Shown here piece after piece: positions 3,606-25,053 of a stretch of DNA of 64,000 nucleotides (positions within the stretch are counted from its first letter, which is position 1; each line of letters opens with the position of its first letter). Source of the DNA: Paracoccus liaowanqingii. GTDB taxonomy: Bacteria > Pseudomonadota > Alphaproteobacteria > Rhodobacterales > Rhodobacteraceae. Under the pieces are notes generated by a model. That model did no database searches and was not told the origin of the DNA. It saw nothing but the letters and a program-made list of their open reading frames with translations. Location of the stretch: contig NZ_CP038439.1 of NCBI RefSeq assembly GCF_004683865.2, forward strand, positions 1,652,501 to 1,716,500, read 5' to 3'. Position numbers and translations under genes: made by a program.

Positions 3606-4067
3606 TCATGCATAGAGCTTGCGGGCGCGATCCTCGAAGGCGCGGACGATGCGCGACATCGCCTCGTGGAAGACGACGCCGATCAGCCGTTGCAGAATGG
3701 CATTCTTGAACTCGAAATCCACATGGAATTCGACATGGCAGCCGCCCTCGGGCCGGTCGGTGAAGGTCCAGCCGCTGCGCATGTAGCGAAACGGGCCGTC
3801 CAGATATTCCGTGTCGATCTGCAGCGGCCCCGGCCCGTCCGCGGGCCACAGCACGACGCGGCTGCCGAAACGCTCGCGGAACACCTTGAAGCTGATGACC
3901 AGATCGGCGGTGATCTCCTCGGCGCCGTCGGGACGGGTCTCGCGCGTGCGGATGCGGGCCGCGCTGTTCCACGGCAGGAACTGCGGATAGCTTTCCACAT
4001 CAGCGACCAGATCGTACATCTGGCGCGCGGTATAGGGCAGATTTCGGTTGTCTCGATGGTTCGGCAC
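3606..4067 (-). CDS. ratA: RatA/Coq10-type START domain protein
   Basis: 153-aa single-domain protein of the polyketide cyclase/START fold. Family hallmarks are the N-terminal LPYTARQMYDLVADVESYPQ, FLPW at about residue 30, and a C-terminal amphipathic helix (FHEAMSRIVRAFEDRARKLY). Alphaproteobacterial members correspond to Coq10, a ubiquinone-binding chaperone; E. coli RatA was described as inhibiting 70S ribosome assembly. The Coq10-like role is the likelier one here. The start is GTG at 4067 (MPNHRDNRNLPYTA). A DUF4870 gene follows 10 bp downstream. Confidence 0.85.
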   Translation of the reverse strand: MPNHRDNRNLPYTARQMYDLVADVESYPQFLPWNSAARIRTRETRPDGAEEITADLVISFKVFRERFGSRVVLWPADGPGPLQIDTEYLDGPFRYMRSGWTFTDRPEGGCHVEFHVDFEFKNAILQRLIGVVFHEAMSRIVRAFEDRARKLYA

Positions 4068-4137: not shown

Positions 4138-4317
4138 ATGCACAACCTGATGTGGCTGGTTCGAGCCGCAAGATGGGTTCGCAACCCCCCAAGTGCCAAG
4201 ATGGTGATGATGGTCTTTGGCATCATCGCCGTCGCGCTGGTCATCGCGGGGGTCGAATGGATGGGCTGGTGGCCCGAATGGGCGACGATGGACCGCCAGC
4301 CGCGCTTCCCGCGCTGA
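4138..4317 (+). CDS. Small single-span membrane protein (59 aa)
   Basis: A 59-codon frame from ATG 4138 to TGA 4315-4317. It has a basic N-terminal segment (RAARWVRNPPSAK), one hydrophobic helix (VMMVFGIIAVALVIAGVEW, residues 23-41) and a Trp-rich tail (WMGWWPEWAT). The pattern of an RxxRWxRNPPS motif before a single helix recalls short hypothetical proteins seen in Rhodobacteraceae, recalled from memory and not searched. Its upstream GAGGCGCAAG gives a weak ribosome site. It is divergent from ratA. Function unknown. Confidence 0.6.
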   Translation: MHNLMWLVRAARWVRNPPSAKMVMMVFGIIAVALVIAGVEWMGWWPEWATMDRQPRFPR

Positions 4318-16239: not shown

Positions 16240-16329
16240 GGAGAGGTGCCGGAGTGGTCGAACGGGGCGGTCTCGAAAACCGTTGAGCCTGCAAGGGTTC
16301 CGTGGGTTCGAATCCCACCCTCTCCGCCA
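16240..16329 (+). tRNA. tRNA-Ser (anticodon CGA)
   Basis: A 90-nt class II tRNA including an encoded CCA (16327-16329). The acceptor stem is ggagagg/cctctcc, with a D-arm, anticodon loop CTCGAAA giving CGA, a long variable arm, and the T-loop GGTTCGAATCC. Its 3' end is the integration site of the following island: the last 14 bases plus one are repeated at 24304-24318, so the gene is regenerated intact on insertion. Confidence 0.97.
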
Positions 16330-16330
16330 C
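16316..16330 (+). repeat. Left attachment site (attL core)
   Basis: CACCCTCTCCGCCAC, forming the acceptor 3' strand of tRNA-Ser plus CCA and one base. It is identical to 24304-24318. Confidence 0.85.
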
Positions 16331-16916
16331 ATCATCCGTTTAAAGCGTTGTATTCGTTTTGAAATTGGCGATGTCTATATTTTTATTCCCCCAACGCTTC
16401 CCCCATTAAATTCTGGCATATGCCGAACGATGTAGGAACGTTCGGGCGCGCTTGATGACGCAGACGCACCCACACCCCCTGTCAAAAACTGCTCCCAGTC
16501 AAAATGAGGCAATGGCACGGGTCTAGGGACACTACCCCCCATCTTATTTTTCGGGGGGGCCGGATCTCAGAGAAGCGCGGGAAATCGACGACAGGCAGAT
16601 GCAACCGCCCAGCCGCGCCGCGCTCGCGTGAGAGACGAAAAACTGTGTTGACAGGAAGCGTGATGACCGAAGCCGGTTCCGCAAGACGCGCGGCGCAGAC
16701 AATGTGTCCACCCCCGACGCCGCCTTTCCAAATGCCTTGAATTGTGACTGGGTAATTTCATTGCCCGCGCCGGTCCGGCGTGAGAGACCGTAGAACCTTC
16801 AATGCTACCCCCCCTTTTTAAAAGCCCCCTAGTCCTTGCTGCAGACCCGTGGGAATGCTTCATTTTCAGAGGCGTTGCGTTCGGCTGGGGGGTATGGGTT
16901 CAGTCAAGCCAACTCG
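16331..16916. other. Gene-poor left end of the island
   Basis: About 590 bases with no convincing gene: codon use is erratic and there are runs such as seven G at about 16551. It holds the paired TTCCCCCA repeats described separately, a TTGACA hexamer at about 16649, and an 11-bp direct repeat GCGTGAGAGAC at about 16626 and 16778. I see no RNA gene. Confidence 0.5.
16386..16405 (+). repeat. Paired TTCCCCCA repeats, left arm
   Basis: Two copies of TTCCCCCA at 16386-16393 and 16398-16405, 12 bp apart, 56 bp inside attL. The same octamer with the same 12-bp spacing and orientation occurs near the right end (24163-24182). The layout suggests arm-type integrase binding sites. Confidence 0.6.
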
Positions 16917-17969
16917 CTAGGCCAATTCGCGCAACAGGTTGTCGGTCACGAACCGGGCAACGTGAAGAATTTTTGGCTGTCGCTGCCGCTTGACGAGGGC
17001 GTTGGCCAAGCGGCGCGCCATAAACACCGGCAACAGCTGCTCCTTTTCGTCTCTCGAAAGATCAAGCGTGGACAGAAATGGCAGCGCACTGTCCACCGCA
17101 ATACCCATGTGGGTTGCGGCGCCGGTCTGCGGCAGGTGGTCTTGCACATGCAGCAGGAAGGTCACGCAATCGCGCAGGATCGGCATCCAGGTCTCTCCCT
17201 CGATGTCGAAGGCATGGATCGTATTGCCCTGCACACGCAGATTGCCCGGATGGAAATCGCCATGGCTGGCAGCAATGCTGAGCTTGCTGCCGCGCAGCTC
17301 GTCGATGCGTTCGGCCTGCCAGCCCGTCAACCGCTGCCACCGCGCAAGATCCAACGGGTTGGCAATTCCCGCAGGGTCCTGCAAAGGACCCAGCATCCGT
17401 TGAGCATCAAACGATACGGTCTTACACCTCAATTTCGTAAATTGGGTCAGCCAAGACCCACCCATACCCAAAAGCTGTTCGCGGCGTTCACGTTGCGCCA
17501 GCCGGATGGCGGCGCCCATCGGGCACCCCGGTGCCAGCTGCAGGGCAATAAGTCCAGCTTCAGGGTCTGCAGTCATATACCCGGCCACGCGGTTGTTGGT
17601 GTTGGTCATCCGGGCCACGGCAAAATCAAGCTCTGCCATCATTCCATGAATGCGTTGATCTGCACCCGGACCCAGCAGGCGTTTGACATAGACAGGATTG
17701 CCATCCAGAACGCCACGCACGACTATCCGCTCAGGTACGGACTTCACCAAGCTCTCAAGCCTAAAGTGCTTGAAGCCCGGTCTTTTTCTAAGAAAGGCTT
17801 CTAAATGCGCGACCGGAGCAAGTTTGGGGGGCAAGAGCAACAGGGCGGGCCGATAGATGGAACTAAGTCTGCCTATAACGATAATCCTTAGTGGGCTAAA
17901 TTTTTGACGGTAGGTCGAAGCGGTCTTTCCTCTGACCAATCTGTTTACTTCGCGCGCGTGAGAATGCAA
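16917..17969 (-). CDS. APH/choline-kinase-fold phosphotransferase family protein
   Basis: About 350 aa with a kinase-like phosphotransferase domain: catalytic loop SHGDFHPGNLRV near residue 236 and metal-binding FDIEG about 17 residues later. The N-lobe is shorter and less clear (VLDGNPVYVKRLLGP supplies a candidate ATP lysine). Substrates in this superfamily include aminoglycosides, choline, sugars and lipopolysaccharide, so no substrate is claimed. The reading frame opens at TTG 17969, which has a poor ribosome site; the true N-terminus may be later. It is cargo near the left end of the island and codirectional with the integrase. Confidence 0.7.
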   Translation of the reverse strand: MHSHAREVNRLVRGKTASTYRQKFSPLRIIVIGRLSSIYRPALLLLPPKLAPVAHLEAFLRKRPGFKHFRLESLVKSVPERIVVRGVLDGNPVYVKRLLGPGADQRIHGMMAELDFAVARMTNTNNRVAGYMTADPEAGLIALQLAPGCPMGAAIRLAQRERREQLLGMGGSWLTQFTKLRCKTVSFDAQRMLGPLQDPAGIANPLDLARWQRLTGWQAERIDELRGSKLSIAASHGDFHPGNLRVQGNTIHAFDIEGETWMPILRDCVTFLLHVQDHLPQTGAATHMGIAVDSALPFLSTLDLSRDEKEQLLPVFMARRLANALVKRQRQPKILHVARFVTDNLLRELA

Positions 17970-18069
17970 ATCCTGTGTTAGCAGACAGCACTTCCAGCCA
18001 GGCCGGTCCCGCCTGCACGATGCCGTAGAGTTTGAAACGCCCCCCCTCCACGCTTTGGGATGCCTGCAT

Positions 18070-18186
18070 TCAGCCCAGCGTCGGCAACAGATCGCAGCGT
18101 CCCCTGACCAGCCTGTTCAGCGCCCGTTCGGCTCCGTCTAGCTGGCGCGAATGCTCTACGTGTTCCACGTCAATGGCTGGCCTGAC
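18070..18186 (-). pseudogene. Remnant related to the 19701-20249 gene
   Basis: On the minus strand a stretch reads VEHVEHSRQLDGAERALNRL and then ends at a TGA (18070-18072). It matches LNHVENLRQQDAAERALNKL of the intact gene at 19701-20249 in spacing and most residues. There is no start codon with a ribosome site and the conserved C-terminal GGQAVVGNV part is missing, so it is a decayed, truncated copy. The rest of 17970-18281 shows no gene. Confidence 0.55.
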
Positions 18187-18281
18187 GAGATGCGTTCAGC
18201 ACAACCTACTTTACGCCCTAGCACATTTTTAGTTTTACCCTCGTCGTGCAGCCGTGCGACATTGGAGGGGGAGGCCGGAAG

Positions 18282-18956
18282 ATGACAGAAATTCCTCCTG
18301 CGCGGAAGGAACTGAGCGCAGCCGAGATCGGCGCCCTCGCCCACTTGTACCGAGGCGAGGTTTATCGGTCGACGCTTTGGCGACAAAGGCTCGATACTAC
18401 AACGAACTGGTCAGTGGTAACGCTTGGTGTTGCGCTGTCCATCACCTTCGCCGCGCCCGACGCTTCGCCACTACCGCTGGTGCTCGTCGGCATTCTTATC
18501 ATGTTCTTCCTCATGCTCGAGGCGCGCCGATATCGCTACTTCAACGTGTGGCGGGCCCGCTGCCGCTGGCTAGAGACGCATTTCTTCGCGCCTATGCTTA
18601 AGGAGGGGGACTTGCATCTCGACGAAAGATGGCAGGACAGGCTGGCTGACGATTACCTCCATCCGCGCTATCACGTCAGTTCTGCTGTCGCGATGGGGCG
18701 GCGGATCCGGCGCAACTATCTGTGGATCCTGCTCATCCAAGCAACTGCCTATCTTGGTAAGCTTATCGTCCACCCGGATCCAGTCACCAGCATTGACGAA
18801 TTCCTCTCACGTGCAGACATCGGACCATTGCCCGGGATCGTCGTCTTGGCGCTTGGCCTGCTCTACTGCGTTACATGGGCGGGCATGGCGTTCTGGAGTT
18901 GGCAGAGCGACCGCCGTCGCGCCCGGACGCGTCCGGCCCACACTTCGATGGGCTGA
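18282..18956 (+). CDS. DUF2270 membrane protein
   Basis: 224-aa protein matching the DUF2270 pattern: LAHLYRGEVYRSTLWRQRLD, then TTNWSVVTLGVALSITF as helix 1, helix 2 LPLVLVGILIMFFLM, the motif EARRYRYFNVWRARC, and two more helices near residues 145-165 and 185-210. Function is unknown. The ATG at 18282 has a strong GGAGGGGGAGG upstream. It is the only clear plus-strand gene of the island and lies between two gene remnants, so it may have arrived separately. Confidence 0.85.
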   Translation: MTEIPPARKELSAAEIGALAHLYRGEVYRSTLWRQRLDTTTNWSVVTLGVALSITFAAPDASPLPLVLVGILIMFFLMLEARRYRYFNVWRARCRWLETHFFAPMLKEGDLHLDERWQDRLADDYLHPRYHVSSAVAMGRRIRRNYLWILLIQATAYLGKLIVHPDPVTSIDEFLSRADIGPLPGIVVLALGLLYCVTWAGMAFWSWQSDRRRARTRPAHTSMG

Positions 18957-19057
18957 TGCACCAAGGGCGCTCGGAGCCTTAGCGAAGCGCATGTCAGACC
19001 AGACGAGGCAGAACCCCTGTTTTTGCCCGTCCCCCGGTCGTAATCCGCTGCCTCCGG

Positions 19058-19327
19058 TCAGTGCAGCTTTAGTAAAGAGGCACGGCATTGTTTGACCAGC
19101 CTGTCGACCTGCGCGCGCAGCGCCACCGCACCGTGCGACCGTTCGCCGTGCCGAAAGTTCGGGTGCGCGGGGCCTGGTTTCTGGCCACCGCCTGCACCAT
19201 GAACGCGGCAGACCCGCCAGCCAGTGACAGCCGGGGCGAGGCAAGGCTTGCCCGTGCGCTTGGCGGTGGCGGTGCATCTTGGTGCGGCATTGGCCCGATC
19301 AATGGGGTTAGCGTCACCCTTGCCCAT
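19058..19327 (-). CDS. Small phage-type protein with HGxGGG motif
   Basis: 89-aa protein starting MGKGDANPIDRANAAPRCTA. It contains a Cys/His cluster (PCLAPAVTGWRVCRVHGAGG) and then a GPAHPNFRHGERSH segment. This Cx4-Cx9-C..HG.GG...GP..HGxxS layout is common in small proteins on phages and islands, whose role is unclear; zinc binding is plausible. I chose ATG 19327 because the same MGKGDANPIDR start recurs at 19714; upstream ATGs exist at 19336-19342. Its start overlaps the end of the 75-aa gene upstream. Confidence 0.6.
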   Translation of the reverse strand: MGKGDANPIDRANAAPRCTATAKRTGKPCLAPAVTGWRVCRVHGAGGGQKPGPAHPNFRHGERSHGAVALRAQVDRLVKQCRASLLKLH

Positions 19328-19331
19328 CTGC
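19302..19331 (+). repeat. 30-bp direct repeat, copy 1
   Basis: Matches 19689-19718 with one mismatch. It covers the start (MGKGDANPID, minus strand) of the HGxGGG gene and points to a duplication followed by loss of most of the other copy. Confidence 0.7.
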
Positions 19332-19541
19332 ATGCTCATCATTCAACTCTTTACCGAATAGAACGCCGAGACTGCGCTTTCTAGGTGCAGCATGTTCTAA
19401 AGCCGCTAACCCCTCCAAAGTATGGCGGAGGTCGTCAAGCGTCACGTTGTCGTTCGCTACGCTGATGATATTCAAAGCTGACTTTGGTATTGTTCCTCCG
19501 AACATCTGCCGGACGTCATCAAGGGTAAGCTTGTCCGTCAT
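19314..19541 (-). CDS. Hypothetical small protein (75 aa)
   Basis: Starts MTDKLTLDDVRQMFGGTIPK and contains two similar TLDDxRxx segments (LTLDDVRQMFGG and VTLDDLRHTLEGLAA), suggesting a short internal repeat. The ATG at 19541 has AAAGGGG seven bases upstream. Its 3' end overlaps the start of the HGxGGG gene by 14 bases, so the two are likely coupled. No family recognised. Confidence 0.5.
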   Translation of the reverse strand: MTDKLTLDDVRQMFGGTIPKSALNIISVANDNVTLDDLRHTLEGLAALEHAAPRKRSLGVLFGKELNDEHADGQG

Positions 19542-19597
19542 GAGATAGCCCCTTTCTTTCTCGCGCCTGTGTTCGATAACGTTGAGCATAGCCGATT

Positions 19598-19714
19598 TTA
19601 CCGGATTTTCATCAAACTACTCGATCGCGATATGCACTCGCCCACGCGCAGATTGCGGACATCCGCTTTGACCAAGCTTGTTCGGTCTATGGGGTTAGCG
19701 TCACCTTTGCCCAT
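19598..19714 (-). pseudogene. Truncated copy of the HGxGGG gene start
   Basis: From ATG 19714 the frame reads MGKGDANPIDR exactly as in the intact gene at 19327, then diverges (TSLVKADVRN) and stops at TAA 19598 after 38 codons. The Cys/His region is gone. It directly follows the 182-aa gene ending at 19701, the position where the intact partner would be expected. Confidence 0.55.
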
Positions 19715-19718
19715 CTGC
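19689..19718 (+). repeat. 30-bp direct repeat, copy 2
   Basis: Second copy of the 19302-19331 sequence, one mismatch. It spans the end of the 182-aa gene and the start of the truncated HGxGGG copy. Confidence 0.7.
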
Positions 19719-20249
19719 CCGCCCCCCGTGCTGCACATTGCCAACAACCGCCTGACCACCACTTTCCACATTCACCCGCTCCACCCTAACAACCTGCTGC
19801 CCCTTGCTGCGATACCGCTTCAACCCGTCAAGCTGCGCTGCGTAGGTTCGGGCCAGCTTGTTCAGCGCCCTTTCGGCTGCGTCCTGTTGGCGCAAGTTCT
19901 CAACGTGGTTCAGCCGCCGCGCCATCATCATGGTTGCTTGGTGAATTACTGCCATCTGGGCCAGCAACAGCGTTTCTGCTGCATCGCGGGGGGCCATGCT
20001 ATCGACAAAGCCCAGCGCGAAGCTGGACGCCTCTGGGTCGATGCGCTGCCCGTGAGACCCAAGGACGGCGGCTTGCTTCACCAGCCCAAGTGACACCTGG
20101 GCGTTTCCCGCACCTGCCTTGATCCGTCCATAATCGCCCAACCTTTCGACCCTCAGAACGTCGCCCGCGTCAAATCTCAAGGCGACGGTCGGACCCTCGC
20201 GTTTATCCCCGGTGACGGGCACGGGCGGCGTAGTGGTCTTGTCGGTCAT
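19701..20249 (-). CDS. Conserved island/phage protein (182 aa) with GGQAVVGNV motif
   Basis: Helical protein starting MTDKTTTPPVPVTGDKREGP. It has a middle segment MAVIHQATMMMARRLNHVEN, an ALNKLARTYAAQLDGLKRYR helix, and a C-terminal VERVNVESGGQAVVGNV motif. That tail is recurrent in small proteins of alphaproteobacterial phages and islands, usually just before an HGxGGG gene; this is recalled, not searched. The ATG at 20249 has AAGGTG seven bases upstream. A decayed partial copy lies at 18070. Function unknown. Confidence 0.6.
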   Translation of the reverse strand: MTDKTTTPPVPVTGDKREGPTVALRFDAGDVLRVERLGDYGRIKAGAGNAQVSLGLVKQAAVLGSHGQRIDPEASSFALGFVDSMAPRDAAETLLLAQMAVIHQATMMMARRLNHVENLRQQDAAERALNKLARTYAAQLDGLKRYRSKGQQVVRVERVNVESGGQAVVGNVQHGGRADGQR

Positions 20250-20327
20250 GGCTGCACCTTGCATCGCTGGGCATCCTTGCTGCGCACCGCTTGAAGCGTG
20301 GGCCTATGGCTTAGATGTAGATATGGC

Positions 20328-20461
20328 TCAAATACTGCGCCGCCTGTCCGGCAAAATCGCCCCAAGGCGGCCCAGTGATTGCGCCGCTTTGGACGTCGCA
20401 GCGTGTCACCGGGCCGGAAGTGGCTCAGTGACTGCGCCGCGCGGCTCAAATTTTGCGCGGG
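20328..20461 (+). repeat. Four copies of a CTCAGTGAYTGCGCCGC-like motif
   Basis: Related 17-mers start at 20328 (ctcaaatactgcgccgc), 20371 (cccagtgattgcgccgc), 20424 (ctcagtgactgcgccgc) and 20445 (ctcaaattttgcgcggg). A fifth match, ctcagtgattgcggg, lies at 21504-21518, directly upstream of the four-gene operon. They occupy the gap between the HTH gene (stop 20446) and the 182-aa gene (start 20249). This could be an operator array or iterons. Confidence 0.55.
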
Positions 20462-20850
20462 GATTCTGATTTTGCCCGCCATGACATATAGGCTTTCGAT
20501 GCCGGTTTTCCGTCGCATGGTTCTTCCTCCAAAGCATAAGTGCTGGCCTGCCCGATGCCGGACGGGCCAAGGTGGTGTTCGCCGGTCTTGCGGATGAAGC
20601 CGCGCGCCTCCAGTTCCCGGAACCAGCCCGCGACCGTGTTGCGGGCCACGTTCAGCGCCTTGGCCGCATCCCGGTGCGAAAGGTAGAGCGCGCCGTTGTT
20701 CGATCCGGTGAAGCGTCGCTTTATTTCGACGTAGAGCGCACGCGGGCCGGGCGGCAGGGTTGCCCATGCCGCGCTGGCCTGCATGTATTCCATAAGCTGC
20801 ACAAAGCGTCCGGTGCCGCGCTTGTGGCGCTTGTAGGGCCTAGCTGCCAC
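20446..20850 (-). CDS. Helix-turn-helix (replication/regulatory-like) protein
   Basis: 134-aa protein starting MAARPYKRHKRGTGRFVQL with a winged-helix-like region: LSHRDAAKALNVARNTVAGW is a clear helix-turn-helix, followed by FRELEARGFIRKTGEHHLGP. The layout resembles small DNA-binding proteins of alphaproteobacterial islands. The start is GTG 20850 with GGGGGTG upstream, overlapping the previous gene by 11 bp. It is the last member of a run of four overlapping genes. The nearby repeated motif (20328-20461) is a plausible target. Confidence 0.65.
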   Translation of the reverse strand: MAARPYKRHKRGTGRFVQLMEYMQASAAWATLPPGPRALYVEIKRRFTGSNNGALYLSHRDAAKALNVARNTVAGWFRELEARGFIRKTGEHHLGPSGIGQASTYALEEEPCDGKPASKAYMSWRAKSESPRKI

Positions 20851-21106
20851 GTTGCACCCCCACAGCGCCCCTCAGCCGCCCGCTGGCGGCATGGAACACC
20901 TCTGGACAGTCCAGCCTTCGCCCCGTCAGGGCAGACCAGCGCAGCGCCCACAGCAGCGCGCTGCGGCGGCATGGCGCCAGATAGACCAGCCGTGCATGGG
21001 CGCGGTGTTCGGTCAGGTCATAGACCGCGAAGGCAGGGCCGGTGCGCGCTGTCGCGGCGCGCACCTCCACCCAACCGCGCGGCGTGTCGTGCCGCGCCGG
21101 GGTCAT
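20840..21106 (-). CDS. Hypothetical island protein (88 aa)
   Basis: Starts MTPARHDTPRGWVEVRAATA and continues with FAVYDLTEHRAHARLVYLAP. It is Arg/Ala-rich with a probable small alpha/beta fold; no family recognised. Its ATG overlaps the TGA of the 32-aa gene (ATGA), and its end overlaps the GTG of the HTH gene by 11 bp, which supports real translation in a coupled operon. Confidence 0.55.
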   Translation of the reverse strand: MTPARHDTPRGWVEVRAATARTGPAFAVYDLTEHRAHARLVYLAPCRRSALLWALRWSALTGRRLDCPEVFHAASGRLRGAVGVQRGS

Positions 21107-21201
21107 TCCAGATCCCCCCAAACCATGCGAGCCACAAGCGCTGCCCGTTGCGGTGAAAGACCATAACGCGCGCATAGGAAGGCAATGCGATAGGCGGTCA
21201 T
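21103..21201 (-). CDS. 32-aa micro-gene in overlapping operon
   Basis: Reads MTAYRIAFLCARYGLSPQRA then ALVARMVWGDLE. The ATG at 21201 overlaps the stop of the 98-aa gene and its TGA overlaps the next ATG, both as 4-base ATGA. AGGGGG lies upstream of the start. The sequence looks like a small helix-turn-helix (FLCARYGLSPQRAALVA). The double overlap is the main evidence that it is real. Confidence 0.5.
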   Translation of the reverse strand: MTAYRIAFLCARYGLSPQRAALVARMVWGDLE

Positions 21202-21494
21202 GCCCTACCCCCTTCCAGTCGGTCGGCAAGCGCTTGGGCGCTGGGCGGATAGCGCAGTCCCGCCAGATCGGTGCCAAGGGCCAGCCGGTAATGTGCGATG
21301 TTCTCCGGGCCGCGCAGTTCCGTCACGATGGGCCAGCCATAGGCGGATTTGAGGCGATGGATTATCGCGCCAAGCCGCCAGCCTTTCACCTCGCGGATTT
21401 CGGTCTTGTGGGAAATGACACGCCCCCTTGTAAGCGCGTCGCAGGTCCAGAAAACTTGCGTCGGATTTGAATACCAGCGTTCAGAATTCGGCAT
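21198..21494 (-). CDS. Island HTH-like protein (98 aa)
   Basis: Starts MPNSERWYSNPTQVFWTCDA. The middle, ISHKTEIREVKGWRLGAIIH, followed by RLKSAYGWPIVTELRGPENI and AHYRL, resembles a small winged-helix protein in which a recognition helix is followed by a beta wing. Similar short proteins are frequent between AlpA and Rep-like genes on Rhodobacterales islands (recalled). It heads a run of four coupled genes. A CTCAGTGATTGCGGG motif lies 10 bp before its start. Confidence 0.55.
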   Translation of the reverse strand: MPNSERWYSNPTQVFWTCDALTRGRVISHKTEIREVKGWRLGAIIHRLKSAYGWPIVTELRGPENIAHYRLALGTDLAGLRYPPSAQALADRLEGGRA

Positions 21495-21600
21495 TGTATC
21501 GGCCTCAGTGATTGCGGGCCGGGGCGCTGGGCGCTATGGTCAGACCATCCCTAGACTTTCCATAGCTGCCGCCGCCCCAAGCCTCGGGGTGGCGGTTTGC

Positions 21601-21780
21601 TTATGCGGAAGTGCGGCTGTTCAGCCAATCAGACAGCGCGCTTTCGGGCCAACCAACCGCCTTGCTGGTCAGCTTTACCGGGCGCGGAAACTGCCCCTTG
21701 CCCATCAGGTCGTAAATCGTGCTGCGGCTTAAACCAGTGATTTCTTCAACGGCGCGGCGGCGGAGATGTTTTTGGGCCAT
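21601..21780 (-). CDS. alpA: AlpA-family transcriptional regulator
   Basis: 59-aa MerR-like HTH protein: LRRRAVEEITGLSRSTIYDL, then GKGQFPRPVKLTSKAVGWPESALSDWL, the standard AlpA/Phage_AlpA signature. In P4- and CP4-57-type elements AlpA activates excision genes, so it is the likely excision or island regulator here. ATG 21780 is chosen with AGGGAA upstream; in-frame starts further up (21798, 21846) would add an untypical N-terminus. Confidence 0.88.
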   Translation of the reverse strand: MAQKHLRRRAVEEITGLSRSTIYDLMGKGQFPRPVKLTSKAVGWPESALSDWLNSRTSA

Positions 21781-21937
21781 GTCGGCATTTCCCTGCATGT
21801 TGCGGATAGTAAAAGCAACATGGTGCGAAAGCCTGTCGTTTATCAATCAAATGTCAGCCCAAAAAAGAGAGTATGCAGCCCATAAACCTTGCCAATTTCT
21901 ATCGCATTTTCGGGCAGAATTTTGGGCACGTTTTTGG

Positions 21938-22963
21938 CTAGTCACCTTTGGTAGATAGCACATCCGCAAGGTATCTCTGGACAGATGACCGACTTGGCTT
22001 TTGATTAAAAACTTCTTTCACCCACTCGGCAACCGCCTCGTTAATGGCTTCTACTTTCTTCGGCAGTTCTCCGTTTTCACGGCGCCTTGTAAACTCGTAT
22101 CTGACTGCTAACTGAATATTTCCGTCTCCGAGACCAGGCCTACCCGGGCGTCTTGTAATCTGACTGGTGGGCACCTTATGATTCGCATCCAAAATTAAGG
22201 CAGCTCCGGACATTAAACCGGAAAAAGGGGTTTCAACGGCTTCCGGCCTCGGAAACATCTTTAATAAATCTCTCATTAGCATTTGAACGCCAACCCAACC
22301 AAATTCATCACCCTCAATAGAAATAGCTGAAGTTCTCCAGTTAATCGAAGATTGCCGCCAATGTTCAGCGGGCACTGATTGGAATTCGCCGGAAATATTT
22401 TCATCATTGCCATCATCGCTTCTCTCATTGGTTTTATTGGCGACGCGAACGCCCAATGTAGAAAGCCTACCTGATGCAACAGCGTTAAAAATAGCCGCCT
22501 GGCCAATCTCAGAGCGTCTCTCTAACTCTGAAATATACGGCCTGATTAAAGCTTCAGCCTCCAAGGCTTTTTCATCCTGCGAAAGTTCCACCTCACAATC
22601 AGCTATAATTCTTTCCAAATGTGAATTCTCCTTAACGCTCCTCATCATATCAGAAATAACGCCTTGCAAACGGCGAATGTTAGCCTCTATTTCAGGTGCG
22701 CCTCGACCGTAAGTTAAGGCCAACGCTGTCGAAAACCGCTCCGGATTAGCACTTTTTATTATCGTTTGAATTACCGGCGCCACCTCAAAAAAATCTGAAC
22801 TCGTCAACGCCTGCATTTGGTCAAGATGTTCATCAGCGGAACTGCGAATGTCATTCCCATAGCCGTCGCTCAAGAACCGGGGCACAATGCCGAGAGAAAC
22901 CCAAAGCGCAGCCTCATGGATATAGCAGCTTTCCGGCAGTTCGGCCCGAACGTAAATTTCCAT
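21938..22963 (-). CDS. Hypothetical protein coupled to the integrase (341 aa)
   Basis: The gene is clearly richer in A and T than its neighbours, a sign of recent or different origin. The N-terminal two thirds are helical and acidic with a coiled-coil-like stretch (RIIADCEVELSQDEKALEAE). The C-terminal 80 residues (TRRPGRPGLGDGNIQ onward, with KPSRSSVQRYLADVL at the end) look like the GRP-plus-HTH tail of integrase-linked proteins in alphaproteobacteria. The ATG at 22963 shares a base with the integrase stop (TGATG), so it is translated from the same message. No enzyme motif seen. Confidence 0.65.
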   Translation of the reverse strand: MEIYVRAELPESCYIHEAALWVSLGIVPRFLSDGYGNDIRSSADEHLDQMQALTSSDFFEVAPVIQTIIKSANPERFSTALALTYGRGAPEIEANIRRLQGVISDMMRSVKENSHLERIIADCEVELSQDEKALEAEALIRPYISELERRSEIGQAAIFNAVASGRLSTLGVRVANKTNERSDDGNDENISGEFQSVPAEHWRQSSINWRTSAISIEGDEFGWVGVQMLMRDLLKMFPRPEAVETPFSGLMSGAALILDANHKVPTSQITRRPGRPGLGDGNIQLAVRYEFTRRRENGELPKKVEAINEAVAEWVKEVFNQKPSRSSVQRYLADVLSTKGD

Positions 22964-24159
22964 CAGCCAATCCTCACCACGTTTTCGCGTTTTTCAGCCA
23001 AGAAAGCCGACCAAGCGTCCATCATCTTGCGGCGCTTGTCGAACACGTCGCTGCGGGCATAGGCCCGCTCCACGGCATCGCCGGACAGGTGCGCCAGCGC
23101 CGCCTCGGCCACCTCGCGGGGGAAAGTCGTGCGTTCCTGCGCCCAAGTGCGGAAAGACGTGCGGAAGCCGTGAACGTCGGCCTCGAAACCCAATTCCTTG
23201 ACCAGCTTCGAAAGGGTCATGTCCGACAGCGGACGGCCCGTTTTCGTGCCGGGGAACACAAGCCCGGACCCATCGGCTAGCGCCTCTGCCTCGCGCAGCA
23301 ATGCCACGGCGCGCGGCGACAGGGGCACGCGATGCGGGCGTTTCATCTTCATCCGGGCTGCGGGGATTTCCCAGACTTTCGCGGTCATGTCTATTTCGGC
23401 CCAGCGGGCTTCGCGCACCTCTCCAGACCGCGCAGCGGCCAGCACCAGAAATTCAAGCGCCAGTTTTGTCACCTGTCCCGCACCGGATGCCCGCACAGTA
23501 TCAATGCAGCCCGCCACGTCACCATAGGGCAGCGCCTTGCGGTGTTCCTGCACTTTGGACACCTTGGGCAGAGCCCGGCTAATATTCTCGGCTGGATTGT
23601 CCTGCCGCCAGCCTTGGGCAATGGCCCATTTCAGAACCATGCCGATGCGCTGACGCACCCGGCGCGCGGTCTCCGGTTTCTCCGTCCAGATCGGCATGAG
23701 AACCGCAAGCACGTCGCCCGTGGTCACGTCCTGCACTTTCAGCTTGCCCAGCCGGGGGAAGGTGTAAGTTTCCAGCGTGGACAGGAACTGCGCCGCGTGC
23801 TTTTCATTGGCCCAAGTGGGCTTGTGCAAGGCGTGAACCCTGCGGGCCGCTTCTTCGAAGGATAAGACAGCCTGCGCCTCACGCTTGGCTTGCAACGGGT
23901 CGCCGCCTTCACGGGCCAGCTTGCGATTGACCAACGCCTTAACGCGTGCCTCGGCCAGGGTGACCAGTGACGGCGAACCAAGCCCTAGTTCACATCGCTT
24001 GCCGCGCACCGTGATACGCTGGACCCAGAACCGCGAACCGTTGGCGTCTACGCGCAGGTAAAGCCCATGCCCGTCAAAATACTTGCCCGGCAGGGTGGCG
24101 TTGCGCACCGCCTGCGCGGTCAGGGCCTTTTCCGGCGTGCGGGTCAGATGGACGGCCAT
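22963..24159 (-). CDS. int: P4-type tyrosine recombinase/integrase
   Basis: 398-aa integrase with an N-terminal DUF4102-type arm-binding domain (PGKYFDGHGLYLRVDANGSR), a SAM-like core-binding domain and the catalytic domain. Catalytic residues are Arg244 (AARSGEVR), His330 and Arg333 (VHGFRTSF), His357 and the nucleophile Tyr367 (ERAYARSD). The ATG at 24159 has GGGGGAAG five bases upstream; in-frame ATGs at 24171 and 24183 are alternatives. It reads away from attR into the island, and its ribosome site overlaps the right-hand TTCCCCCA pair. Confidence 0.95.
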   Translation of the reverse strand: MAVHLTRTPEKALTAQAVRNATLPGKYFDGHGLYLRVDANGSRFWVQRITVRGKRCELGLGSPSLVTLAEARVKALVNRKLAREGGDPLQAKREAQAVLSFEEAARRVHALHKPTWANEKHAAQFLSTLETYTFPRLGKLKVQDVTTGDVLAVLMPIWTEKPETARRVRQRIGMVLKWAIAQGWRQDNPAENISRALPKVSKVQEHRKALPYGDVAGCIDTVRASGAGQVTKLALEFLVLAAARSGEVREARWAEIDMTAKVWEIPAARMKMKRPHRVPLSPRAVALLREAEALADGSGLVFPGTKTGRPLSDMTLSKLVKELGFEADVHGFRTSFRTWAQERTTFPREVAEAALAHLSGDAVERAYARSDVFDKRRKMMDAWSAFLAEKRENVVRIG

Positions 24160-24162
24160 AAC

Positions 24163-24182
24163 TTCCCCCATTCCTTCCCCCA
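24163..24182 (+). repeat. Paired TTCCCCCA repeats, right arm
   Basis: Copies at 24163-24170 and 24175-24182, 12 bp apart, 122 bp inside attR. They have the same sequence, spacing and strand as the left pair. They cover the integrase start region, so binding there could repress the gene. Confidence 0.6.
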
Positions 24183-24303
24183 TTGACTTGGGGAATAGCC
24201 CGGACCACGCCGGAACAGTAGAGACATGGGAAGCCCGTTAGTCTGTTGCAATAGCTTGATGAATTGGAAGTGTTAGGAACATGCGGGATAGAGGAACGGC
24301 AGA

Positions 24304-24318
24304 CACCCTCTCCGCCAC
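24304..24318 (+). repeat. Right attachment site (attR core)
   Basis: CACCCTCTCCGCCAC, identical to the 3' end of tRNA-Ser at 16316-16330, located 145 bp beyond the integrase start. Confidence 0.85.
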
Positions 24319-25053
24319 TTGCATATCCCAGACCTAAGTTGAGATCCTTCACGCGGCCTTCTTGATCGATGGAGCGATGGGGTTCCGTAACGCCATCCGG
24401 TTTTCGACGACGTGCCTTGAACAAGCGTGCTGCCACGGCGGTGGCGAGGACGTTGGGTTGGCCCGATGAGGTGACGCAAACAGGGATTCGATGATTTTGT
24501 GTCCGGGTCACCGATCCAGATGGTCAGGCAGTACCGGACTGGTCCTTCCTAGCTTGAGGCGAACTTCGCTGCACGATTGTCGCCGGTGGCCGTATCCATG
24601 GCTGGAGGAACACCATGTAGGTGTCTGCCGTGATTGCGGGAAAGCCACTTTGCGCCGTCGGGAAACGCGACTTCATTCGACGCGGCGCCGGGACCGATGG
24701 CGACTGCGGCTTGTTTTCGATTGGCGCGCCCCACCCTTCTGGCTGGCCATCTCGTGTCCCTGTCCAGCTAGATCCGAAGTGATCCGCGTTGCCTCGGGGC
24801 TTCATTGCTGCGCTTCTTGTTTGTCGTGCAGTGGCGGGTGGGTTCCGGATGAACCGTGCGAAGACGCATTTCGTAGCAGAGGAACTCTTGCCGCCGGCTG
24901 AGGTCCGTACCGATGCCCATGCAGAACAAGCCGCACGATGATGTCAGCAACCAGATGGCGGATCCACAGCCCAGAACAGGATGTCCGACCATACGAACGT
25001 CAAGGCGAAAACGGAGCAATGCCCTGTGCAAACCATTAATCAAAAGGAAGAAG
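24319..25053. other. Intergenic stretch with decayed DNA, right of the island
   Basis: About 735 bases without an intact gene. Open frames here have unlikely codon use and no ribosome sites. A degenerate IS5-like transposase start is visible on the minus strand (24640-24845). The rest looks like old mobile-element debris or promoterless spacer before tRNA-Glu. Confidence 0.5.
24640..24845 (-). pseudogene. IS5-like transposase N-terminal remnant
   Basis: On the minus strand, frame-by-frame reading gives TRHCTTNKKRSNEAPRQRGSL, here trimmed as TTNKKRSNEAPRQRGSL, then an in-frame stop and LDRDTRWPA..GRANRKQ. It parallels the IS5-family start (YRTTNWxxYNEALRxRGSL.IW.D...W.A...GR.GR). The stop and substitutions show it is dead. 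The assignment is from pattern recall. Confidence 0.4.

Follow-up and report, generated by a model that had tools for sequence, protein, structure and literature searches.

At both ends of a genomic island of about 8 kb in Paracoccus liaowanqingii (assembly GCF_004683865.2, contig NZ_CP038439.1), an octamer occurs as a co-oriented pair with the same 12-bp spacing; from comparison with related islands and known systems, these pairs are very probably arm-type sites for the island's own integrase, arranged in a layout like that of P4. The island lies in a stretch of 64,000 nucleotides (positions 1,652,501 to 1,716,500 of the contig), hereafter the window, in whose coordinates all positions below are given. 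It sits in a tRNA-Ser(CGA) gene, with a 15-bp attachment (att) repeat at either end, and codes at its right end for an integrase with a PF13356 arm DNA-binding domain. The anatomy of the island, the conservation and geometry of the pairs and the P4 likeness of their layout are direct observations. The island pairs belong to a known kind of site, and their blueprint is unusually regular. The features that carry the argument are as follows.

16240..16329, plus strand: tRNA-Ser (CGA), the integration target, whose 3' end is the left att (ARAGORN)
16316..16330, plus strand: left att repeat CACCCTCTCCGCCAC, a direct repeat with 24304-24318
16386..16393, plus strand: putative distal arm site, copy of TTCCCCCA (sequence match)
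16398..16405, plus strand: putative distal arm site, copy of TTCCCCCA (sequence match)
22963..24159, minus strand: integrase with PF13356 arm domain, PF22022 central domain and PF00589 catalytic domain (Pfam)
24163..24170, plus strand: putative integrase-proximal arm site, copy of TTCCCCCA overlapping the int ribosome-binding region (sequence match)
24175..24182, plus strand: putative integrase-proximal arm site, copy of TTCCCCCA (sequence match)
24304..24318, plus strand: right att repeat CACCCTCTCCGCCAC, a direct repeat with 16316-16330

An initial annotation of the sequence had pointed out pairs of equal spacing and strand at the two ends, and its coordinates are exact: the start-to-start spacing is 12 in both pairs, and the four plus-strand copies of TTCCCCCA, all at the island ends, are the only ones on either strand of the window. 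Taken singly the octamer is unremarkable, with a mean of 2.27 copies in shuffled sequence and at least 4 copies in 17 of 100 shuffles. The doubled word is rare, as the annotation had supposed: exact TTCCCCCA-N4-TTCCCCCA occurs twice in the genome of 4,925,228 bp, both times at these island ends, where about 0.0035 copies would be expected from independent bases at the composition of the window. When up to two mismatches are allowed there are 8 sites in the genome against 4 for a control pattern with the letters backwards, and the six non-exact sites each have two mismatches. The left pair lies 56 bp from the 3' end of tRNA-Ser (16329), the distance originally given; the right pair was measured at 121 bp from the right att copy instead of 122. 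As also annotated, the right pair falls on the integrase start region, spanning -23 to -4 relative to the likely start, the ATG at 24159; with the alternative in-frame ATG at 24183 it would fall in the first codons. Read in the orientation of the integrase, the word is TGGGGGAA.

Conservation and fixed geometry in related islands

The integrase was compared with the best 80 of 175 confirmed named loci, obtained by a scan of genome contigs and with Paracoccus integrases as the closest among those 80, and with 30 loci from 394 family genomes; 99 of 116 upstream regions were retained after removal of those at least 70% identical. In a test blind to the word, in which exact 6-mer repeats were counted at all lags from 5 to 40, a lag-12 repeat was present upstream of 64 of the 99 related integrases (first-order Markov control mean 6.4, maximum 11), and of 59 of 94 once the window and four loci from the pair search were excluded; lag 10 was found in 40 and lag 20 in 21 of the 99. 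A phylum set of 30 PF13356 loci from 80 genomes, taken best-scoring first with redundancy kept, gave a lag-12 repeat in 23 (control mean 2.1, maximum 6). The words in these phylum loci are quite different, for example GTTGGTAT, TGTCGGTA, GTGTGTAG and CGTATATAA; in 15 of the 30 an 8-mer, too, recurs at lag 12, and some of the single 6-mer matches may be due to chance. Across 74 loci with a clear pair, the information is 0.96-2.0 bits in columns 1-7 of the word, for either copy, and 0.33-0.64 bits in the four columns of the spacer; only the contrast of spacer and last position is free of selection, because the loci were chosen by closeness to TGGGGGA. The last position of the word is A, T or C with few exceptions, and both copies have the same letter there in 65 of the 74.

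The far ends of the islands were searched with each integrase's own word. Of 55 relatives searched downstream of int, with at most 2 mismatches in 16 positions allowed, 20 showed an own-word pair on the predicted strand and none showed one on the opposite strand, and the reversed-letter control gave 1 of 55; when any G-rich lag-12 pair was accepted, the predicted strand gave 210 hits and the opposite one 117, mostly background. Sister islands thus keep the pairs, the point on which the initial annotation had made its reading depend, and in one of them, the 9-kb island of G101, the pair is exact at either end.

Because these downstream searches had used the word, the islands were also mapped from the att sites first. 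A fixed stretch ahead of the proximal pair was compared with all of the DNA downstream, and the longest unique repeat that the two shared, of 13 bp or more, was accepted as the att; the distal pair played no part in this, and 27 of the 55 relatives gave such a repeat. Within the 110 bp inside the far att, an own-word pair (at most 4 of 16 mismatches) is present in 24 of the 27 islands versus 79 of 5400 random windows; 23 have their best own-word match at 50-58 bp from that att, and match and position come together in 21. The proximal gap is 109-122 bp in 26 of the 27, the stretch searched restricting it to 85-155 bp. These proximal gaps fall into classes, with 119-121 bp in 18 islands and 109-110 bp, about one helical turn less, in 5; the remaining four are 105, 116, 118 and 122 bp.

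In 16 of 21 islands with a called far-end tRNA the pair lies 56 bp from the tRNA 3' end, as it does in the window, the other gaps being 54, 55, 58, 58 and 66 bp; the 56-bp cases occur at Ser, Ala, Arg and Met tRNA genes and the 66-bp case at an Asn tRNA gene. The exact pair of the window was found in 19 copies in 17 of the 394 family genomes, compared with 3 for the backwards-letter control pattern. Six of the 19 lie 3-62 bp ahead of an integrase match, one more (L120) lies 235 bp ahead of such a match, and eight have a called tRNA 3' end nearby, 56 bp away in seven and 46 bp away in one, locus L133 of genome G012, the sole tRNA-side exact pair at that distance among the eight. Another (L131) precedes a tRNA-like sequence that ARAGORN does not call, and three are near neither an integrase match nor a tRNA.

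TCC arrays beside the integrase-side pair

A third, inverted copy of the arm word and a series of TCC words spaced 10 bp apart lie by the right pair and had been overlooked in the initial annotation. Together with a gene of the AlpA family they are listed here.

16435..16437, minus strand: lone TCC at -32 from the distal pair, the window's only unit of a far-end array (register comparison with relatives)
21601..21846, minus strand: AlpA-family gene, candidate excisionase (PF05930, E 5.1e-19)
24188..24195, minus strand: third, inverted arm copy, TTGGGGAA on the plus strand, with one mismatch to TGGGGGAA and 5 bp from the pair (by reading the sequence)
24192..24214, minus strand: TCC array B (GGA on the plus strand), units 24192-24194, 24202-24204 and 24212-24214, at -12, -22 and -32 from the pair (sequence and family profile)
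24249..24261, minus strand: IHF-like site CATCAAGCTATTG, between the two TCC arrays, with one mismatch to WATCAANNNNTTR, which we take to be the IHF consensus
24266..24288, minus strand: TCC array A, units 24266-24268, 24276-24278 and 24286-24288, at -86, -96 and -106 from the pair (sequence)

In the family the TCC clusters stand at -12, -22, -32 and -42 and then near -85, -95 and -105 from the pair; array B of the window is without the -42 unit, and further TCC words lie at -49 and -113 from the right pair. For 21 islands (the 27 minus three with weak distal pairs and three with other gaps), the stretch from att to the right pair holds 142 TCC in 2477 bp on the integrase strand versus 14 on the opposite strand, the background elsewhere being 2755 in 209,433 bp, and neighbouring TCC words are exactly 10 bp apart in 66 of 121 cases. 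Two TCC words stand 10 bp apart 228 times over the 99 loci, where other distances average 13.8, and 34 times in the 30 phylum loci, where they average 3.7. The gap between far pair and att is TCC-poor, with 9 in 1159 bp.

In passages of one paper, excisionase sites are direct repeats that follow each other at about one helix turn (PMC7498355), and passages of another place the sites of the KplE1 excisionase TorI in two blocks of GTCCG, GTTCG and GATCG words (PMC2951348). As far as the sequence goes, the integrase side of the island carries helically phased direct repeats of this kind, a TCC every 10 bp. The TCC arrays are probably sites for the AlpA excisionase, and we read array A, which is close to the core in the integrase-side arm, as the one-sided part of these predicted AlpA sites.

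The third arm copy follows the same 10-bp lattice. It is exact, at the same gap, in four relatives (L009, L013, L015 and L135), and among the 74 loci inverted copies with at most one mismatch stand at a gap of 5 bp in 13, of 15 bp in 12 and of 25 bp in 3, all other gaps between 0 and 30 bp being free of them. As TTCCCCCA contains TCC and the features overlap, the third copy and the TCC array are inseparable by sequence alone. The IHF-like site, with at most one mismatch, is present in 14 of the 74 loci versus 4.9 in shuffles, a modest enrichment; passages on the P4 int promoter region report an IHF site there (PMC7286903).

Known systems and the reader of the pair

The layout is closest to that of the satellite phage P4, whose record (NC_001609) annotates adjacent 12-bp 'attP arm sequence repeat' pairs at 3942-3965 and 4151-4174 and single arm repeats at 3915-3926 (inverted) and 3621-3632. 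In both P4 and the island, two 12-bp tandem arm repeats lie on each side of the core in the same orientation, with an inverted extra repeat at the int start; the P4 pairs, of TTGGGGGCATAA-type units on one strand, flank the core at gaps of 112 and 53 bp versus 121 and 56 bp here, and the P4 word TGGGGGCA is one base apart from TGGGGGAA. The TCC words of P4, at -12, -22, -32, -42, -85, -95 and -105 and also at -77 and -130, are close to the island and family registers. The record names the P4 integrase as having an arm-type DNA-binding domain, and the island integrase has PF13356; the P4 excisionase Vis resembles the AlpA family, and the island has its PF05930 gene. The position of the island at a tRNA 3' end (tRNA-Ser 16240-16329 with the att repeat) is also that of P4-type elements. 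P4 differs in its host, its target tRNA, the annotated arm repeat within int (3621-3632) and a far end with none of the four TCC array units, where the relatives of the island have a weak array. None of the P4 replication (primase), capsid-size or helper-control genes was recognised in the 10 open reading frames (ORFs) scanned, which are part of the island's ORFs.

KplE1 (CPS-53), with the IntS/TorI module of E. coli K-12, shares with the island, by eye, lag-12 doubled words, GGGTAAAA/GGATAAAA before intS and GGGTAAAA/GGGTAAAA at the far end, as well as an integrase promoter within the att region and int-side excisionase sites that form two blocks. Its arm word is another one, its integrase is distant (the domain structure 2kj8 matches weakly), and its sites have been studied experimentally: passages of the KplE1 paper identify the TAAA-containing P' sites upstream of intS as integrase arm-type sites (PMC2951348). 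CP4-57 (IntA/AlpA), also of E. coli K-12 and also by eye, resembles the island in having lag-12 pairs at both ends (AGGCCCA...AGGCCCA and GGACCAA...GGACCAA), some TCC words 10 bp apart and an AlpA, and differs in its word. The HE-PICI elements have a doubled, co-oriented TGTATTGC whose copies lie 81 and 132 bp from the centre of attP, versus about 77 and 134 bp here; their word is another one, and passages of the paper report it absent from other PICIs and leave its binder open, integrase or AlpA (PMC10111431). By our reading, the HE-PICI motif is one dialect of the same attP layout. The arm-type sites of lambda differ from those of the island in words and spacing, and arms of the lambda type were rejected because the layout differs. 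In passages of PMC2951348 the lambda integrase is described as bivalent with an N-terminal arm-binding domain, and int and att of lambda as organised differently. Comparison with the relatives, P4 and KplE1 thus lends good support to the arm-type assignment that the initial annotation had suggested.

Covariation bears on which protein reads the word. Among 129 loci, 96 have a lag-12 word matching in at least 7 of 8 positions, and 90 of these, 71 of them family loci, have a usable protein. In the 71 family loci the word tracks the arm domain with the rest of the integrase allowed for (partial rho 0.31, 0 of 300 permutations as high), with no further contribution from that rest itself (-0.07, 255 of 300); in the full set of 90 loci the values are 0.27 (0 of 300) for the arm domain and 0.04 (70 of 300) for the rest, the label permutations leaving shared ancestry in place. 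This suggests that the catalytic part is not the reader, but it does not separate the arm domain from AlpA. Because the covariation leaves AlpA possible, we base the choice of the integrase on the records of P4 and KplE1.

Several results weigh against the arm-site reading or narrow its base. When AlpA was added, in 55 loci, the word tracked the arm domain (0.18, 5 of 300) and AlpA (0.19, 6 of 300) alike. A weaker TCC array stands just inside the far pair in the same register, with units at -12 in 8, -22 in 9, -32 in 11 and -42 in 5 of the 21 islands and 17 far-end distance-10 pairs of TCC versus 1 of GGA, so that directionality cannot rest on the array beside the pair alone; this array slightly lowers our confidence in the arm-site reading and slightly raises it in AlpA on the pairs. 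An exact lag-12 6-mer was absent in 35 of the 99 family loci and 7 of the 30 phylum loci. No usable att repeat lay within reach in 28 of the 55 relatives, whose far ends are thus outside the test; larger islands, contig ends or decay are likely causes. The proximal pair of G217 is decayed. The empty chromosomal site was sought in genus relatives and was not found: the left flank alone was matched, in 11 loci and 5 longer stretches, and the right flank of the island had no match beside tRNA-Ser in the genus relatives compared. On contig C9 of G217 (L170, L171 and L118), an intact far-end pair by a tRNA-like sequence lies about 32 kb from the integrase with the decayed pair, and the two may or may not belong together.

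The rival that survives best exchanges the roles, with the AlpA excisionase on the pairs and the 10-bp TCC arrays as the arm sites of the integrase. Of 58 loci with over 4 kb of downstream DNA, 48 have a linked AlpA gene, the word follows AlpA as closely as it follows the arm domain, the weaker array also lies beside the far pair as arm sites would, and for a similar motif the HE-PICI authors leave both binders open in the passages cited above; we nevertheless regard it as improbable, since the P4 record labels the lag-12 repeats as arm repeats, the arm-type sites of KplE1 carry TAAA and its TorI sites GTCCG-like words, so that the lag-12 words GGGTAAAA fit arm sites, and a spacing of about one helix turn (PMC7498355) fits the TCC arrays as excisionase sites. 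It is very unlikely that the pairs serve a host factor or a protein involved in replication or packaging instead of recombination proteins, given that the word varies between islands with the integrase arm domain and keeps a constant distance from att, a constancy for which a host factor would have no need. A reading in which the right pair is just the purine-rich leader of int that binds the ribosome, and in which the C-rich DNA on the left matches by chance, is hardly credible: the right pair does overlap the Shine-Dalgarno position (GGGGGAAG-TT-ATG) and the single octamer is not rare, but a plain leader is ruled out by far-end pairs that have no gene start, some of them 56 bp from tRNA ends at loci without an integrase, and chance by the two exact pairs in 4.93 Mb, the matches in family genomes, the 20 downstream pairs on one strand only and the att-first mapping.

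Proposed attP layout and its wider meaning

On the preferred reading, with the integrase on the pairs, each octamer would be one arm-type half-site for the PF13356 N-terminal domain. The excised attP would then have two co-oriented half-sites, 12 bp apart, in each arm, the distal ones 56 bp and those on the integrase side about 120 bp from the core, and the four half-sites would serve four integrase subunits linking the arms to the core. A bend at the IHF-like site may assist the bridging of arm and core, AlpA and IHF together bending the integrase-side arm. AlpA on the TCC arrays of that side would give excision its direction; going by known systems, excision would require AlpA and integration would not. 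Which protein binds which site here, the four-subunit arrangement and the repression considered next are our inferences.

Since the int leader and the start of the gene lie under the integrase-side pair, bound integrase (and AlpA) would be expected to keep int expression low; that this pair mediates repression of int by the integrase is likely from precedent. Self-repression of int is documented in passages on the P4, PAI I536 and KplE1 integrases; in KplE1, however, single arm-site mutations left the repression intact, P'1, which overlaps the -10 box, being uninformative (PMC2951348).

The probable core sites and the remaining observations on the island and its genome are less closely tied to the pairs.

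24298..24316, plus strand: probable core sites GGCAGA / TCCGCC flanking a 7-bp overlap at 24304-24310 (by reading the sequence)

In the integrase orientation, GGCGGA-N7-TCTGCC occurs at the core-site position in several relatives. The arm domain of the integrase was matched by Pfam with E 4.1e-19, and the solved chains 3jtz and 3ju0 align inside residues 13-97. Cargo genes include a DUF2270 membrane protein (18246-18956, E 2.2e-68) and an ORF on the minus strand (16917-17969) with no Pfam match, whose HGDFHPGN stretch presumably recalls aminoglycoside/choline-kinase-like phosphotransferases. A 24-bp direct repeat of 83% identity (16613-16636 and 16765-16788) lies just within the left end, and about 735 bp (24319-25053) separate the right att from a tRNA-Glu. 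A second PF13356 integrase of the same genome (L169, G000:C1:2276903-2277154) has, by eye, no clear upstream lag-12 pair.

In the literature covered, at the level of titles, abstract openings and passages and with most subscription papers and the P4 Vis/Int papers outside that scope, we found no general statement of the layout beyond P4, KplE1 and HE-PICI, and a search of the ICEKp1 paper for arm-site terms matched none. What that literature did not show is the statement that the layout is common, nearly to the base pair, to P4 and alphaproteobacterial islands, with mainly the word drifting. Arm sites are usually identified by footprinting of single elements; here they can be seen in the sequence itself, and the 16-base doubled word marks the island ends, yields att sites and orientation and matches a far end to its integrase. 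The choice between integrase and AlpA as binder of the doubled motif, left open in the passages of PMC10111431, becomes testable by one binding experiment on proteins from an environmental bacterium. Beyond these islands, we would give an even chance to the proposal that Proteobacterial PF13356 integrases share one near base-exact attP blueprint, made up of the 12-bp doubled arm word, a set distance of about 56 bp from the tRNA 3' end, and the 10-bp TCC array at fixed registers beside the pair, in which only the arm word drifts, coevolving with the arm domain as an identity code. If this is true, the code would be readable from sequence, so that island ends could be located and cross-acting integrases predicted.

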